Below are positions 4,147-15,515 of a DNA stretch of 64,000 nt, one piece after another. Source of the stretch: Musa acuminata AAA Group (taxonomy: Eukaryota; Streptophyta; Magnoliopsida; Zingiberales; Musaceae); the NCBI RefSeq assembly GCF_036884655.1, contig NC_088340.1:5663501-5727500 (forward strand), in the 5' to 3' direction. The notes below the pieces were generated by a model, which ran no database searches, was not told the origin of the DNA, and worked only from the letters and a program-made list of their open reading frames with translations. A program made the translations under genes and the position numbers. Each line of letters starts with the position of its first letter. The first letter of the stretch is position 1.

Positions 4147-4802
4147 TTATATGCTTCCGACAGCCATGAAATCAATGAACCTGACATGAGTTCCCTTCTT
4201 CTCCTCCCCATCTTCTTCTCTCTTTCTTCCCAAATCCTCCTGAGTGCTTTCAGAGTCACTGTTTACTTGGAGGAAGTCATAGAACTCCATCGAGTTATCT
4301 CTATCTGCAATCAGACCATCATGCTAAGTAGATTAAAGTACCTAATTACACCAAGTGTTTCCGATGAAAATACCTGTAGAATATGTTACCTTCACACATG
4401 TCGAGGTGAGAATCCTCATGCTGAGAGTGATGAACCGTGACAGATGTTCTATCAGACTCCTCGATCATGGAAACCATATTTCTCGGCTCGAGCTTTCTCT
4501 TCTTGCATCTCTGAGACTGCTCCTCGTCGACGAAGTTACCATGAAGCCGAGACCGTTCTCTGTGCTTCCGTGCCATGATCACATGCCAATGGTTCTTCAC
4601 GGCGTTATCGGTGCGTCCGGGGAATAGGCGTGCGATGATAGCCCACCTGTTTCCATAGATCTGATGAGCGGCGAGCAGCAGCTGGTCTTCCTCCTCCGTG
4701 AAAGGATTCTTGTTGATCCTTGGATCCAGTTGATTGTACCATCTCAACCTACAGCTCTTTCCTGATTGAAATGATTGAGTGGAAACATTATTAGAACGAA
4801 CC

Positions 4803-4845
<43 letters not shown>

Positions 4846-4991
4846 AAACGCAGGGGCACAGAGATATATACTGCACCTGATCTACCCTGAAGCATCTCGG
4901 CGATGGCGTTCCAGTTATGAGGGCCATATTTGGCAACCAATTCCGTGAGCTTCGCGTCCTCTGCAGGCCTCCAGTGACCTTTGGTGCACAT
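4147..4991 (-). CDS. R2R3-MYB transcription factor, MYB52/54/56 type
   Basis: Three exons (4991-4877, 4761-4390, 4304-4147) give 214 residues. The start is the ATG giving [15 protein letters not shown], typical of this clade. R2 covers about residues 5-52 with regularly spaced Trp, ending in [13 protein letters not shown]3 follows, with Phe replacing its first Trp (NPFTEEEDQ) and ending [18 protein letters not shown]. The C-terminus carries FIDFMAVG, which resembles the FxDFLGVG motif of subgroup 21. Known members act in the nucleus in secondary wall formation, boundary formation or ABA responses; the role of this one is inferred. Intron 1 (4762-4876) splits the R2 region after GRSG, a usual plant R2R3-MYB position, and carries a long (CT)n tract on the coding strand. 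The third exon was placed by its TTGCAG acceptor and frame continuity. Confidence 0.93.
4805..4843. repeat. (AG)n microsatellite
   Basis: About 19 AG units inside MYB intron 1, read as CT on the coding strand. The tract is long and pure, so probably variable in length. It could serve as a pyrimidine tract, although the acceptor is a further 44 nt away. Confidence 0.95.
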
Positions 4992-6122
4992 CTCTCGACG
5001 ATCAGTATGCCTTCGGTGGAAAAGAAGATCGCAGAGGTGGAGATAGTGGGGAGACATATAAAATGCGATGGAGAGTTTCTAGTTAGAGAGTTACGGATAG
5101 TTACATGCACCGGTGGTTGAATGGTACGTGTAGACTAAAGAGTTGTGGTTCACACAAAGTGGGGTGTGGTGGGGGAAAAGATTAGAGAGAGAGAGAGAGA
5201 TATAGAGAGGGGGTTGCTTGGGTGGGTGAATTCTGTTCCTCTTTCAACATCTCTCCTCTCTAACCTACAACGTTTACTTGAGAACCAACCATCATCTTCC
5301 CCAGCACTACACTGAGGACATGCATTAGTAAACACATATTGGTCACCAACGCCGGGCAAGGAAAGTATACAGTATTGGCATTAATTTCGTGCAGATGGAT
5401 ATATGCAGTGAAAGAAGCAGTAGTTGTAGATCGTCTTCAGGTATGCAAGTAGACTTTTGTAGAAGCGCTGCAACGATGGCAGAAATGGAAGTTGTCTTCC
5501 CGACGCAAGAACTTGGTCCAAAGTCTCACCTCCCTCGCCAACCAATCAGCATCAGCAGCTAAGCTTATCACGAAACACTACATTCCTTGCATGGGTGACA
5601 ACCACCGGACCCATTTCGTCAAACGTTTGATGAAATGCCCGTGTCGAAAAAGATACGAGTAATAAGGTCATTTACTTATACAAATGATTAGTGCTTTCAC
5701 CGATACATCCACCAAATGCAAGACTTAGTATAAAGGGTTTATTTTAGTCGTTATGATTTTGATCATAGACTACTTGAGTTTTTATGATTTACTCATATTT
5801 TAAATAATATTTATATTTTTAAAAACATAACATATAAACTTATTCTGAGTTAGTTTGTTTGCGTGACATACTGACTCATAATAAACTATTAATATAATGA
5901 TATATATAATTTAAATTTAAAAAAAATAATTTTAATTGATGTGATTTCGATCATAGACCACTTAAGCCCTTATAATTTTATTTGTGTCTAAAATAACTCC
6001 TATATTTTAACAAACGTAGCATATAAGCCCCTCATATTAAATCCGAATTGACAGACATTAAAGTCTGCTTATGTAATATGCTGACTCATAATAAATTATT
6101 TAATATAATAATATATATAATT

Positions 6123-6167
<45 letters not shown>

Positions 6168-7763
6168 CGAGGAAGAGGAAGTGACGGAGACTAGACAGAC
6201 GAAGAAAGAGAGGTAGAGATAAAAGAGGTGAAAGAGATATAGCAACAAACGACAAACGAACTCGAATCTAATACAAATAAGAAATTCTCCGATCCAATTT
6301 ATTTGTTCAAATTTTAAAAATATTCTCTTAACTTTGACACAACATCGATTTTTTTTTATTAACTTTATTCCAACACAAAGATTATATAAATAAATCTATT
6401 TTATTTTACATATTGTCACTAACAATTCATGCCGGAAGGTAAATTGATCCTGATAATATCTATAGCTGTTGTATGTGATGCATTTATGATGCTTCATGTT
6501 TGAATATATGCCTAACAGTTCAAGTTTTGAGATTTATGACAATCCAATCAAATGATTTACTAACGTATCATAATAGGTTTTGAGTACGAATCACATGATC
6601 CATTTCACTAAGGTATCTGTCCATTTCAATTTCACCGGTTTTCAGTCAATACTTATGTTTTTCTCTGCAATTGGTTTGAATCTCTTCAATTAACTATAGT
6701 TATCACTGAGGTGAAAGGGATATTAATTTTCTTCCGCATGCAATATGATCCACCATATGCATTAAATAGATTAGTCATAAAGCTGCTAGATTTGACTAAG
6801 ATAAATATATGTTGTTAGACACGAGAACAAATCAGATGGTGGTAATCTTGTGTCAGCATAATAGGTGCCTTTGAATGCATAAAATAATGGTACCAGTAGA
6901 ACCCCCCCCTAAGGTTCTTTGTGATTAGAATATTGGAACACTTGCAGTCAAGTTCTTATGTCACTATCATATTTTCCTTTGGCAAGAAACACTCAATGTG
7001 TCATTTCAAGATATCCTTTTACATCTCCATTGCTTTGTATACAAATCAAGCTCTAGTGAATGTCTCTAAATTAAATAGGGTTCTTAGCAAGAAAGGATAT
7101 GCTAAAATAATCAAATTGGTAACTCTTTTAACCTTGTTTGCTTAGGTCTTCACTACATCAAAATAGGCATATTTTGTCGTGTCTAATTTATGTCCATGAC
7201 ATGATCACATTGTTAGGTTAAACAATAGAAGATGAGCAATGACAATGTCTACAAATTGTACAGCATTCATCACATGAAGGACATGAACCGAATTGAATGG
7301 GAATCAATGGCATAAATATCATAAAAACAAAGCCAACATTAGTTCCTAACTCTTTCTCATACATCCAAAATTTTCATTTACCAACAAAGAACTTGACCTT
7401 TAACCTCCAAAGCAGAATCAAGCCATGCGCTGTCCCAGAAAAGATCAGATACATAATTACAAACGAATTTGAAGTTCAATTGAAGTCAACATTTCAGGTT
7501 TCACATCTCGGGATATCTGCACACTGATATCATCTATGAACAACACTTCATAGGAGTTGTTCATCGATGCTTCCTTCGAATCCTTAGTTTCCACAAATGT
7601 CATACTTATTCCCACAATAGGCCGATGTCACATTAATTTTGTGGTTTCAGAGGGCATGACTTGGCAGCACATACACATACAGCAGAGCATGGTGAACCAT
7701 AAGCATGGGTTCTGTCAACTGGTGATTCTTAACCATGTAGGGAGCAGTATGGTTCAAACTGGA
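4992..7763. other. Spacer between divergent-side MYB promoter and DPB2 3' end
   Basis: The first 400 nt are the MYB promoter/leader side, with a short (GA)n tract near 5181-5201. A degenerate direct repeat and an (AT)n tract occupy 5753-6165. From 6200 to 7760 the DNA is AT-rich with only short, unconvincing open frames. The part from about 7500 is the 3' flank of DPB2. Confidence 0.5.
5753..6165. repeat. Two-copy degenerate direct repeat (about 188 bp) ending in (AT)n
   Basis: Copies near 5753-5940 and 5941-6127 share GATCATAGAC, an ACATAACATATAA-like block and GACTCATAATAAA in the same order, offset by 188 nt. An (AT)n run fills 6129-6165. The copies have clearly diverged. There are no coding features; it is probably an old tandem repeat or a non-autonomous element. 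Confidence 0.7.
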
Positions 7764-10700
7764 TTAGCTTTCCAAGGCAGACAACTCAACCTCCTGAGTG
7801 CAAGGGCGATATGCAGCAAATGTGTTGTCATTAGAGAAGGAGCCTGGATTGAAACAAGTTATTCCAGTATATTTGAAAGCCTTCTGCTCACTCCTGTCAC
7901 CCAACACTATCTGTAAAACAACAGCATTAAAGTTTGATAACCTTGCACACATGTTTTCAGGTATGCATGACACGAAGAGTTGATACCGTATGTGGAGTTG
8001 GATATAATCTAAGGCAGTGATCATAGTTCCAGATGATGGGTTGCACAGTCAGCGGCAAGGGGCAAAGATGACTTTGATGAGTAATAGTGGCTACAAGCTG
8101 CAACCAACATATCATCTGAGTGTAACCACTCGCAAATTCCAGTTTTTAGATACAAAAGAGCAAAATAAAAGAAAAATGAAAACTCACATGCTGGAAATAA
8201 TCACCCGTTTCTGCTGTTGATGGAGGAATCAAACAAGATCGACGCATTCTGTAAAGCAAATCTTGCCGAAAAATAACAATTTCTTGGGTGTAAAATTTAA
8301 TTCTGCAAATTGCACAATGAGTCACAAATTAAGATTATCAGATGAGCTAGAAACAAGCATATGATTCCATTGCGATGTATACAGAAAGAATAAAAATGAC
8401 CTCAAGTGCAGCTTATGACATTGGTTTATGTACCAACTCTTATATCAAGTCTAAAGCTTGATGGAACATATCATCTAAAGCGAAATGGGATGGTAGTACA
8501 TTGATATTCTCCAACCAACTATTCGGTGAGAGTGACAAACTAGCTAATGTTTTTCATGTGGAAAAAATAATTAACAATAGGGCAATTCAATTATCACATA
8601 AATCTAACCTGCATGGGTTGCTACGGAAAATAGCACCAGGGATATGCTTTTGCAATTCTTCAGTGAGATACTTTGGCAGAGCACACCTTGGAAGAACCTT
8701 GGATGGACCTACAATGTCAAACTTTGTGAGCTTGGATTGCATTAATCTCGGATAAGAGATCACAAATGTTCTCAAATAATCATGTATAGGGAGTATGCAT
8801 ATGAATCATGACATGTGGCAGCACAAAATTTAAGACATTCTGTAGATCATGGGAATTAATAAACTTCCCGACCAGTATAGGCAACAGATACTTAGAGAGG
8901 TTATGGTAACAGAATCATGGGCTGGCCCACACCAGAATTGTATCTACAAATTTCAAGTAATAATAGAAGTTAAAGAATAGATGGTACCTGCATCATCAGG
9001 ACCTGGAATAAACAAAAATCTGCTTTGTTCTCTTAGTCTTGGGTGAGAAGCAATCATTTCTCCAAGCTTTGCAAACTGCATTCTGCATTTTGTAATTTAT
9101 CTGTCATATACTTATTTTTCTGACAAGTGATACTTAGTACAATCATGAAATCTTGCAAATTACATAAGCTCTTTTAGTTAAAGAACATTGTCAAACAATA
9201 TATTGACCCCCTCATTCGCAGGAGCTTTGTGCACAGGGCTGTCCTTTTCATTAAGATCTTTAGTCGAAGTGCATCCAGAAAAGGTTAAAGAGGGTCCTAC
9301 CTGAGAGTTGAATAAGAATAGAAAGCAAGGTTGCAGGGCCGAGAGCAGAAATTCCCCATCAAGATAAATAAAGAAGGAACCACCTCAACACTTTCATAAC
9401 CGTCAAAGACCACAGCGAGCTTTTCCACAGTCTTTTCTATCAAATAACAAAGTCCATCATTTTGAGAAGAAAACATTAACCCATTAGATTGAAGAGACTA
9501 AGAGATACTGAGTCTACCTCTTCATTGTCCAACCAAACATCTGACAGGACCACAAACATGTCATTTACTGCCTTCTTCTCTAGCCCTAATAATCTGAACT
9601 GTTTGACATACGGAACCATTTTTTTGTCAAATTTTGACATATAGAAGATATGCTCGTTACTAATCAAGTAAATCTGGCTGGGAATGATGATTTATATAAA
9701 GGGTGAAGATAAGAATACATTTTCTTCGGTTGATAAAACGTCTCCACCGAAGAAGTCAAGCCCCATGTGTAGTGCCAATGATGTTTCTCTATCCTCCAAG
9801 GGTGGAAATCCACATGTATTGACCTACAAATCATGCAAAAGTTATGAAATTTAGGTTTGTGCTGTAGTAGGAATCCTTGAGATTTAACTGATGATAAATG
9901 CACAAAGATCCAAGTAGCTAGATTATATTATATTAACCAGAAGGCTATTTTCCCAGAGACTTCCAAAGCAGAATGAATATAGCCACTTCACCTTAGGGTG
10001 CAACTCCAAAATCTTGAAACCCCAAATCATTGAGTGTATTGGTGAAGCTATTACCAGAGCTTACTGCATAAGTCTTACAACAATAATTACCAATGTTTAT
10101 GTGATTTATAGTATCAGAAAAGTTTCCCAATTGCTTTTGGGTTTCCACAACAAGCATGCAAACTAACTAAGATTCTTAATTTTTTTGATCTTAACACAAT
10201 TATAAGTTTGTAAAATTGTGAAACATGGATCATACAAAAAACCTCTGATTCATCCATTTCATGAAAGAAATACTAGAGAAGCAGAATACAAAAGCTTACA
10301 ATTTTAAGGAAGCCTCACCTGGAAAATACCATTTGAAAGCAACTCTCCTTCTACTACAACCACAGTGTTCTCAACAAAGAATCCTGAAGTGATTTTGTGA
10401 TAAAGATTAAGGAAAAGCTAGTTATAACAGCCTTCCTAGATGAGAAAAGACTAAAAGTAATAATCACATAATATGAAAGGACTGGCACTTTGGCAAATGA
10501 TACAAATAAATTATAATGACTTGCTGGTTCCAGGGCATCAAGGTGATAAAATTCAGATGATAATGATCATTGTTGATTATGTTGCCCTCACAAAAATTCA
10601 GCTAGCAAGCAACAGTAACCCCATTACTTGAAAATTTTCAAGTTGCCGATAACAGATGGATATAACTAAGTTTATCCCACAGAAGAACAGGTTTCGTCTT

Positions 10701-12449
10701 CTTAAAGCAATAGCAATAACAACTGCTTTTTATGTTTTCTCATTTTTCCCCAGATTATCAGGAAATAAGCATGAACACATATAGCTCAAAGTTATGGAAG
10801 TACAAGGTGATACTGATAGGGTCTGGGAAATATATAACCAACATTCTGAAAGGTGGTTGTGTCATGGATACAGCCTTTATGACTAAAGTTTGACAGTAGG
10901 AAGTCAGATGGTTTATACAATTATTTTGGGTTACCTACAGCCGAGAAGCCAAATTTCATCAACTTATTTTCACTTTTAGTATACAGCATGAATGAGAGGG
11001 ATATGTACCAAAAGGTTTTAAACTGAACACACTTAATAGTTTATACTAATCCATTATGTTTGAGAATGCCAACTTGTGCTTCTTTCTTGAGTCATTGATG
11101 CTCTTCTTATTGTGTAAATATATTTCAGAACTTTTCAGATAATAAGAAGTCTACAATTCAAATTTTGATGTACATCATGAAGGAAAATTGACATCTTATA
11201 CACTTATTATTCCATGTTGCAAATTGCAGCCTTCTTACTATTCTATATTATGTCCCAGGTTGACTCCCATCGACAATTTTGGAGGATGAGAAAATCAATC
11301 CTCATCAAGGTGTAGGACAAACTATCCTTATCAAACACAACATATGGCCCTTTACTGCATACAAATACTGTAGGCAATTTACTTGCAACTAATCTATGAA
11401 AAATAAATTGTGAAAGGATATTGAGTTAGATAAATCAATTGGAACAGCAGCAGACAGATCTTCCAAGTAGAACTGGCCTTCTTCCAACTGTGATATCACG
11501 CCCATAATCCATCTTCTTCCGGTGCATCCAATCAAAGACTGAATAGGAGTGATCTGCATACAAACAATGAGGAGGCATAAATCAATAGACAGAGATGTAG
11601 AATCTAATCCAAGTTTCAGAAAGAGTATGATACCTCACAGCTCTCGGATTCAGTCATTTTGGTGTCAAAAACGGGTTTTGAAAAGAATTTGTCGCGAGCA
11701 ATCCTCTGAAGCAGTAACTGGTATCGATCCCTATATAGGGCAGCTTTATCACCAGCATCCCCATGGATAGGCAACTTTCCCGTGTGTCTAGAAACAAATG
11801 CAACCCGTATAATAGTCCGATTACCATATGTCTCATAAAATTCAACATAAACCAAAAAAAAAAACCAAATATGCCATTTTTGTCGCAAGTTTAACCTAAT
11901 AATGCATATAGCCAATGGAACCACGCAACATTATGGAAAGAAACAAACAAGGAAGAAGGAGGAAATTAAGAACGACGAGATCTTTGAGAATGCCTACTCG
12001 TAGAAGACGTTCTTGATGGGATCGTAACGAAACCGAGGGATCACGAACGCATCAATCACCCTGAGGGCGAAGCTGCTGCTGGTGCTGGCGGCGCTGGGGT
12101 CGACGGCGGCATCCGCATTGAGCAGGAGGCTAACAACCCGGCGGATTGCCTCCCGATCCAAGATGGACGATTTCACTGTTGATGTTTAAATAAAAACGAT
12201 TTTTAGGAATCCAGGGGTCAGAACAGAGTGAAAAGATGGAGATGGGATCTCAAATAATAACCAAGTTGAAAGAAACGCACGGGATTGCTTATCGATATCA
12301 TCGATGAGGAGGTCGAGGTATCCGTCTTCGGCGTCAGGGAAGCGGGCAAGGTAGGCGAGGGTCTCCTCTAGGGCGTCGACCTTGAGGGTGAACCCGCGGA
12401 GCTTGAACTTGCGCTGGACCTTCTTCCGAGATCCACTCGGCGCCGCCAT
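7764..12449 (-). CDS. DPB2: DNA polymerase epsilon subunit B (DPB2/POLE2)
   Basis: Thirteen exons (12449-12281, 12175-11998, 11787-11634, 11553-11422, 10396-10319, 9823-9719, 9598-9518, 9431-9301, 9082-8988, 8708-8609, 8302-8188, 8097-7987, 7910-7764) join into one 531-residue frame, close to the roughly 530 residues usual for the family. The N-terminal domain reads [20 protein letters not shown], as in POLE2 proteins. After a linker, the inactive calcineurin-like phosphoesterase domain (about residues 240-500) contains [67 protein letters not shown] and [10 protein letters not shown], ending [13 protein letters not shown]. It is the essential non-catalytic subunit of the leading-strand replicase in the nucleus. 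Intron 4 is an AT-AC U12-type intron; all others are GT-AG. The acceptor of exon 8 is a poor AAAAG, fixed by frame. E2F-like sites lie about 420 bp upstream. Confidence 0.97.
9205..9249 (+). mobile_element. 3' fragment of an Au-type SINE
   Basis: GACCCCCTCATTCGC, then GGAGCTTTGTGCACAGGG and a CCTTTT end, matches the 3' half of the angiosperm Au SINE as I remember it, and the same region of the fuller copy at 53884-54047. It is 5'-truncated and lies antisense in DPB2 intron 8 (9083-9300). Confidence 0.65.
10397..11421 (-). other. DPB2: AT-AC U12-type intron of DPB2
   Basis: No GT or GC donor follows the exon 4 coding sequence (VPIDLSNS). Instead the exon meets ATATCCTTT (11421-11413), the U12 AT-AC donor consensus. 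The next exon ([11 protein letters not shown]) is preceded by TTCCTTAAT (10414-10406), a match to the U12 branch-site consensus, about 10 nt before a terminal AC (10398-10397). Both flanking exons are in phase 0 and the joined protein matches DPB2. The intron is 1,025 nt. Confidence 0.93.
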
Positions 12450-13982: not shown

Positions 13983-15515
13983 ATGAGGATCCGGAAGAGG
14001 CCAAATCCCTCCGCCTCCCCTTCTTCTTCCATCTCTCGGCCGCCGCCGCCGCCGCCTCCGGTTCCTTCTCTGCTCCCAGATCCATCCTCCTATGTCCATC
14101 CAACAGCTGGAACGCCTGATAATAGTGGAGGAGGATATGGTGGGAGAGGTGGAGAGAGGTTGCACTCTGATGGGGATCTAAACATAGACCCCAGTGAGGC
14201 GGGGAATCCTCCCCATCCTGATCAGCCCCATGGAAGCAGCAGCGAAGCAGCAGGGAAGGTGCGCTTACTTACTCATCTTCACAACCTTCCTTGTTCTTCT
14301 TCTGCATCGACCTGCTGCTTTGTTTCGCTTCTTTGGCGAGATCCCCTTCTTGTTCTCGGGGTCCTGATGGGTGCAATGTGGTGATTGTTGCATAACCCCA
14401 CCGTGGGATGGGGCTTTTTCGGATTTGCTGCAGGTGTTGAGAAAGGATGCGAAGGAGGAGGACGGCATGGTGGATAGCAACGAGGGATGGAATACCCATG
14501 TCAATAGTAATTGCAGGTAGGTAACTATTTGTGCCTCTGCCCCCTTCTTGTCCATAGGAAATGAGTAGCTTTCGCTCGTATTACCATCGCTTGCGGGCAA
14601 ACCAACACATAAAGAAAAGGCAGCCCCAGTGCTGTTGCTTCTGCCTGTGCATGCCAGGCTGACCCATCATCGCATCCGACCACCATTCTCATCACGCATC
14701 CACGCACGCACCCACACGCCCTCCCACATCTCCTCCTCTTTCGGATTCCCATGGCTAGGTATCTGCTCATGAGACGAGTATGAAGAGTTACCGAGATTGG
14801 CCTGATGTTGTGAATCTCTAGCAGCTCAAGTGCACCGGTGTCGGCGTGGGAACAGCTTGGAGACGCTGCAACATCGCAGAGGAAAAAGAGAGGAGGAGAT
14901 GGGATGGACATTCAGAAGAAGCCCAAGGGGAAGGGGAGGGCGAAGACGAGTGACACCCCAGCAAATGGTAGTGCTTGCACTAGAGTCGATGCTAGCGATA
15001 ACGGGAGATGCCAAGGTGAGGATAAGGAGGAGGGAGTAGGATGGATGGATGGGAATGGGTCAAATGGGAAGAAGCGGCGGAGCCCAGCGGTGCTGATGGA
15101 GGGGTCGCGGTGCAGCCGGGTCAACGGCAGGGGGTGGCGGTGCTGCCAGAAGACGCTCGTCGGCTACTCTCTCTGCGAGCACCATTTGGGGAAGGGGAGG
15201 CTGAGGAGCATGGCCAGCGTGCGAGGCCAACTGGGCACGAGCACTGGTAAGCTCAAGCGAAGCAGTGAGCGAACCACTGCTCTCTCGAAACCTTTAGAGG
15301 ACAAGCAACCACAGCCCGATGACGCGGATGAGATCAAGATGGAAGATGATAAGGAGAAGACGGCCGCACCGAAACGGAAGAAGATCGGCATGGTGAAGGC
15401 TCGAAGGATCAGCAGTTTGCTCGACGAAATCAATCGTCCATTGCCATCTTTACTGTCGCAGCCGCCAGAAGATCCGTTCATGCGGATGCCCGACGGCAGC
15501 GAGGCAATGGTGTGA
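13983..15515 (+). CDS. WRC-domain zinc-finger protein
   Basis: Exons 13983-14258, 14434-14516 and 14825-15515 give 349 residues beginning MRIRKRPNPS. Exon 1 encodes a Pro-rich stretch (seven consecutive Pro). Exon 3 holds the WRC motif RCSRVNGRGWRC at about residues 215-226; Cys216, Cys226, Cys237 and His240 follow the C-x9-C-x10-C-x2-H spacing of the WRC zinc finger, otherwise known from growth-regulating factors. No QLQ domain is seen, so this is not a GRF. Basic stretches (GKKRR, PKRKK) suggest nuclear location. A C-terminal KARRISSLLDEINRPLPSLL block looks structured but is unknown to me. The role is probably DNA binding or transcriptional regulation, inferred from the domain. Exon 3 has a NAGNAG acceptor (TAGCAG), giving an optional Ser. 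Confidence 0.9.

Follow-up and report, generated by a model that had tools for sequence, protein, structure and literature searches.

AT-AC introns of the U12 type carry the donor consensus ATATCCTT and, near the 3′ end, the branch-site consensus TTCCTTAAC. The AT-AC share of U12-type introns has been put at 23% in soybean, 26% in Arabidopsis and 13% in maize (PMC7367187, Table 2). A passage of PMC7312986 lists mouse Pole2 with the candidate genes whose U12 introns are affected in Zrsr1/2 mutant embryos. Historically, minor introns have been omitted by some annotation pipelines (PMC10639083), and the tying of plant phenotypes to single U12 introns has been called premature (PMC4892727). In a DNA damage response table a plus sign is entered for Arabidopsis DPB2 (At5g22110), and U12 is absent from that paper (PMC7042379). 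Intron 4 of banana DPB2, which an original prediction from the sequence had assigned to the AT-AC U12 type, is compared here with these systems.

The DPB2 gene and the boundaries of intron 4

The DPB2 coding region lies at 7764..12449 on the minus strand of the window, the whole 64-kb stretch of banana DNA analysed here. It consists of 13 exons and encodes DNA polymerase epsilon subunit B. The spliced model contains no internal stops and yields a product of 531 residues, in which the Pfam domains DNA_pol_E_B (1.6e-50) and Dpoe2NT (9.6e-8) were detected. The product matches the human POLE2 chain 5vbn_A (4.7e-98) over residues 3-530, nearly its full length, and is 96% identical to Ensete ventricosum P0001 and to Musa textilis proteins, an identity that places the window in the banana family. 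Both domains and the full-length similarity place it in the DPB2/POLE2 family. Eleven of the 12 introns have GT..AG ends; intron 4 is the sole AT-AC intron. Elsewhere in the window, an open frame at 4346..5134 (minus strand) with Myb DNA-binding domains (Pfam) probably belongs to a MYB transcription factor gene, an open frame at 14814..15515 (plus strand) has a WRC domain (Pfam, 2.3e-15), and no Rfam family was found at gathering threshold in the 64 kb.

Intron 4 (10397..11421, minus strand, 1025 nt) interrupts the frame in phase 0 at codon 211 of 531, within the 5′ portion of the coding sequence. Exon 4 (11422..11553, minus strand) ends at 11422 with GAT TTA TCT AAC TCA (DLSNS), and exon 5 (10319..10396, minus strand) starts at 10396 with AAA ATC ACT TCA GGA TTC TTT (KITSGFF). 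The intron reads ATATCCTTT...TTCCTTAATCTTTATCAC. Its 5′ splice site, ATATCCTTT at 11413..11421 (minus strand), matches the general AT-AC U12-type donor consensus ATATCCTT. The branch-site match TTCCTTAAT lies late in the intron at 10406..10414 (minus strand) and departs from TTCCTTAAC at one position; the second A of the match is 10 nt before the last base of the intron, and the terminal AC occupies 10397..10398 (minus strand). The coordinates, strand and letters given for this intron in the original prediction are exact, base for base, and all the elements on which it had based an AT-AC U12-type intron in DPB2, that is donor, branch match and terminal AC, were found.

The chance expectation of these motifs was estimated from 100 shuffles of the window. 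ATATCCTTT occurs in five copies in the 64 kb, compared with a mean of 1.60 in the shuffles, none of which (0/100) reached five. Donor-branch pairs were counted when the donor was exact, the branch site had at most one mismatch and placed its A 8-19 nt ahead of the final base of the AC, and the intron measured 60-2500 nt. Three such pairs are present, compared with 0.22 per shuffled window (100 shuffles), and all three use the donor at 11421, with ends at 10397, 10389 and 8957. At relaxed stringency, 21 U12-like pairs from seven donors were counted in the window and 8.19 pairs per shuffle. By themselves the motifs make a moderate, suggestive case. The argument against chance is that the exon junction demanded by the conserved protein coincides exactly with one donor-branch pair. 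Downstream of DPB2, at 7003..7108, a 17-nt imperfect inverted repeat has one of the five ATATCCTTT copies in each of its two arms.

Traces of the intron in plant and vertebrate protein models

The intron was followed in other species through protein models rather than genomic DNA. The plant set comprised the best 120 of 581 proteins, taken from 90%-identity clusters and thus related rather than independent. Among these 120, a net insertion or deletion of at least 4 residues was seen at junction 4 in 34 models; the same count at junctions 1, 2, 3, 5, 6, 7, 8, 9, 10, 11 and 12 was 7, 1, 1, 3, 0, 0, 1, 0, 2, 1 and 0, the single gaps of P0018, P0019 and P0063 each spanning two junctions and being counted at both. 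The junction-4 pattern is intact in 74 of the 120 models (72 with a slightly different pattern), 15 continue into the intron, and 31 deviate in other ways, some of them without a change in length. The intact-junction pattern thus fails in 46 of the best 120 of 581 models, so that database DPB2 proteins often carry probably false insertions, deletions or replacements near residue 211.

Directly after the end of exon 4, the 15 read-through models continue with ISF (eight models) or ISL (seven), the expected translation of ATA TCC TTN, i.e. ATATCCTTN. They come from Puccinellia, Festuca, the orchids Dendrobium and Platanthera, Rhynchospora, Spirodela, Coptis, carrot, Senna, Spatholobus, Sesamum alatum, Perilla, Hibiscus, Nepenthes and hemp. 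None of the 39 insertions of at least 3 residues elsewhere in the same 120 proteins starts with IS. The start of exon 5 was located in 103 of the 120, and 31 of these 103 were not scored as clean. In these 31 the residue before exon 5 is Y in 19 and H in nine (28/31), as expected of an intron end of pyrimidine plus AC (codons TAC/CAC), TAT/CAT also encoding Y and H. FLN or FLD within 8 residues before exon 5, seen in 6/31, matches translated TTCCTTAAC/T or TTCCTTGAC. The remaining three carry E (P0063, which lacks exon 4), I (P0084, with an extra residue) and A (P0112, an intact model that the pattern missed). P0084, from Victoria cruziana, has one extra isoleucine between SKT and KITSG, which could reflect displacement of a splice end or an error in the model. 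These faulty public gene models suggest that other angiosperms have an AT-type donor at this residue, in the same phase.

The animal set consisted of the best 120 of 992 proteins matching the human chain, all vertebrate where named and likewise from related 90%-identity clusters. In the alignment, A211 of human POLE2 stands opposite S211 of banana DPB2. ISF follows straight after [DN]L[SN]KA in seven of these 120 models (P0167, P0176, P0180, P0196, P0198, P0206 and P0210), which come by name from pangolin, nighthawk, frog, pitta, narwhal, sturgeon and titi monkey. Among the other vertebrate insertions listed, up to four per site, none starts with IS. One vertebrate model, P0227, has an odd insertion followed by AIS before FHSGLY and was left out of the read-through count. 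The start of exon 5 was found in 113 vertebrate models, where the preceding residue is the ordinary A in 98 and Y or H in seven. Four of the seven ISF models end in Y or H, and P0176, P0180 and P0196 end in L, S or F. With Y or H in four of seven ISF models and in 7/113 overall, the vertebrate models trace the donor end well and the AC end less well. Position, phase and an AT-type donor are thus found in vertebrates by protein read-through only (7/120).

The comparison with other plants and animals that the original prediction had proposed, as a guide to whether the intron is ancient, supports an ancient origin: at the level of protein traces, an AT-type donor occurs at the same residue and phase in angiosperms and vertebrates. 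Intron 4 very probably represents an ancient intron of the AT-AC U12 type, common to plants and animals. Since angiosperm DPB2 and vertebrate POLE2 share its position, its phase (0) and an AT-type donor, it would most likely predate the plant-animal split.

Alternative readings of the junction

All splice pairs of the GT-AG, GC-AG and AT-AC types were enumerated for donor positions 11547..11334, with the acceptor 60 nt or more beyond the donor and no further than the last base of exon 5. The frame stays open with 51 of them (6 GT-AG, 17 GC-AG and 28 AT-AC), and 73 intact plant orthologues served as the reference for scoring each spliced product. The AT-AC pair 11421/10397 has the top score of the 51 frame-preserving pairs (275.2), and conservation thus favours AT and AC as the ends at the true junction. 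Among the GT-AG pairs, 11445/10418 does best, with 245.8. The original prediction went wrong in holding that the frame precludes GT-AG splicing: six such pairs keep it open, and one of them gives the sequence of the deposited Musa textilis protein P0002. It is conservation, not the frame, that disfavours them, and the AT-AC conclusion stands. GT-AG and GC-AG readings of the exon 4/5 junction were rejected on the conservation scores.

If the major spliceosome removed 10418..11445 (minus strand), with the ends GCT/GTTCC ... AACTAG/CTTTTC, LFLNLYH would replace VPIDLSNS in an open frame, as in P0002. The FLNLYH of P0002 is, however, the translation of TTCCTTAATCTTTATCAC from the intron end, so that the U12 branch motif and the AC would be turned into protein. 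This splice would also delete residues that plants conserve and that have counterparts in human (VQLDLSKA) and yeast (VEIDISQT), and by the general consensus its donor GTTCCA is poor and its acceptor has little pyrimidine tract. With its lower score in addition, removal by this GT-AG pair appears extremely unlikely. Splicing of the AT-AC ends by the major (U2) spliceosome has a precedent in U2-type AT-AC introns, which do exist and are reported for sodium-channel genes; these carry G at +5 (PMC2831892), whereas intron 4 has C at +5 inside the full ATATCCTTT and a branch match 10 nt from its end, so that a U2-type assignment has next to no probability. A real intron could also have been gained separately at the same place in plants and animals. 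The sampling leaves some room for this, since it consists of flowering plants and Ginkgo on one side and vertebrate protein models on the other. Against it, residue, phase and AT-type donor are identical in both groups, and 20 of 135 U12 positions are common to human and Arabidopsis, exceeding the U2 share (PMC2426677, Table 1). Independent gain is thus judged very unlikely. On the genomic letters and the protein comparisons, 11421..10397 is almost certainly a genuine AT-AC U12-type intron of Musaceae DPB2, inherited, presumably removed by the minor spliceosome and most likely older than the plant-animal split.

Discussion

From what is established for this intron class, ATATCCTTT would be bound by pairing with the U11 snRNP and TTCCTTAAT by pairing with the U12 snRNP, and splicing by the minor spliceosome would link DLSNS and KITSGFF with the frame preserved. 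If intron 4 were retained, the first in-frame stop would be met at 11389..11391 (minus strand) after 10 intron codons; the sequence would then encode a 221-residue fragment, and the retained transcript would probably undergo RNA decay. The earlier proposal that any change in U12 splicing reduces DNA polymerase epsilon is overstated. What stands of it is the stop after ten codons upon retention and the naming of mouse Pole2 in the Zrsr1/2 mutants in the cited passage (PMC7312986). Control of the Pol epsilon dose through intron 4 in plants is plausible and speculative. That the intron stayed AT-AC in both kingdoms as slow minor splicing sets the amount of Pol epsilon subunit B is an idea we regard as doubtful; if true, it would tie the supply of the leading-strand polymerase to minor-spliceosome activity in dividing plant and animal cells.

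The faulty DPB2 models fit pipelines that left minor introns unannotated, as described in PMC10639083. Phase-0 read-through into ISF or ISL in protein models may offer a cheap flag for missed AT-AC introns. In a literature search of article texts, as distinct from intron databases and supplements, no report was found that locates intron 4 in plant DPB2 and no plant measurement of the DPB2 intron 4 transcript, and 'polymerase epsilon' and 'AT-AC intron' were never found together in one paper.

Three described systems stand closest to this locus. Mouse Pole2 is the orthologous gene, and its intron is of the U12 type like intron 4 of banana DPB2; the passage names neither intron number nor ends, so the two introns would match by inference (PMC7312986). 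Like the U12 introns shared by human and Arabidopsis, intron 4 appears conserved between animals and plants and is located in the 5′ portion of the coding sequence; the main text of that study contains none of the words polymerase, DPB2 and replication (PMC2426677). With the plant AT-AC U12 subtype, intron 4 shares the AT-AC ends and, as judged by the general consensus, the donor and branch motif; it is likewise one such intron amid U2-type introns, and nothing notable differs from the subtype as described (PMC7367187). Intron 4 is a further case of a known intron class, not a new kind of thing, and it adds a clear AT-AC minor intron that plants and vertebrates seem to have retained at a single codon of a core replication gene.
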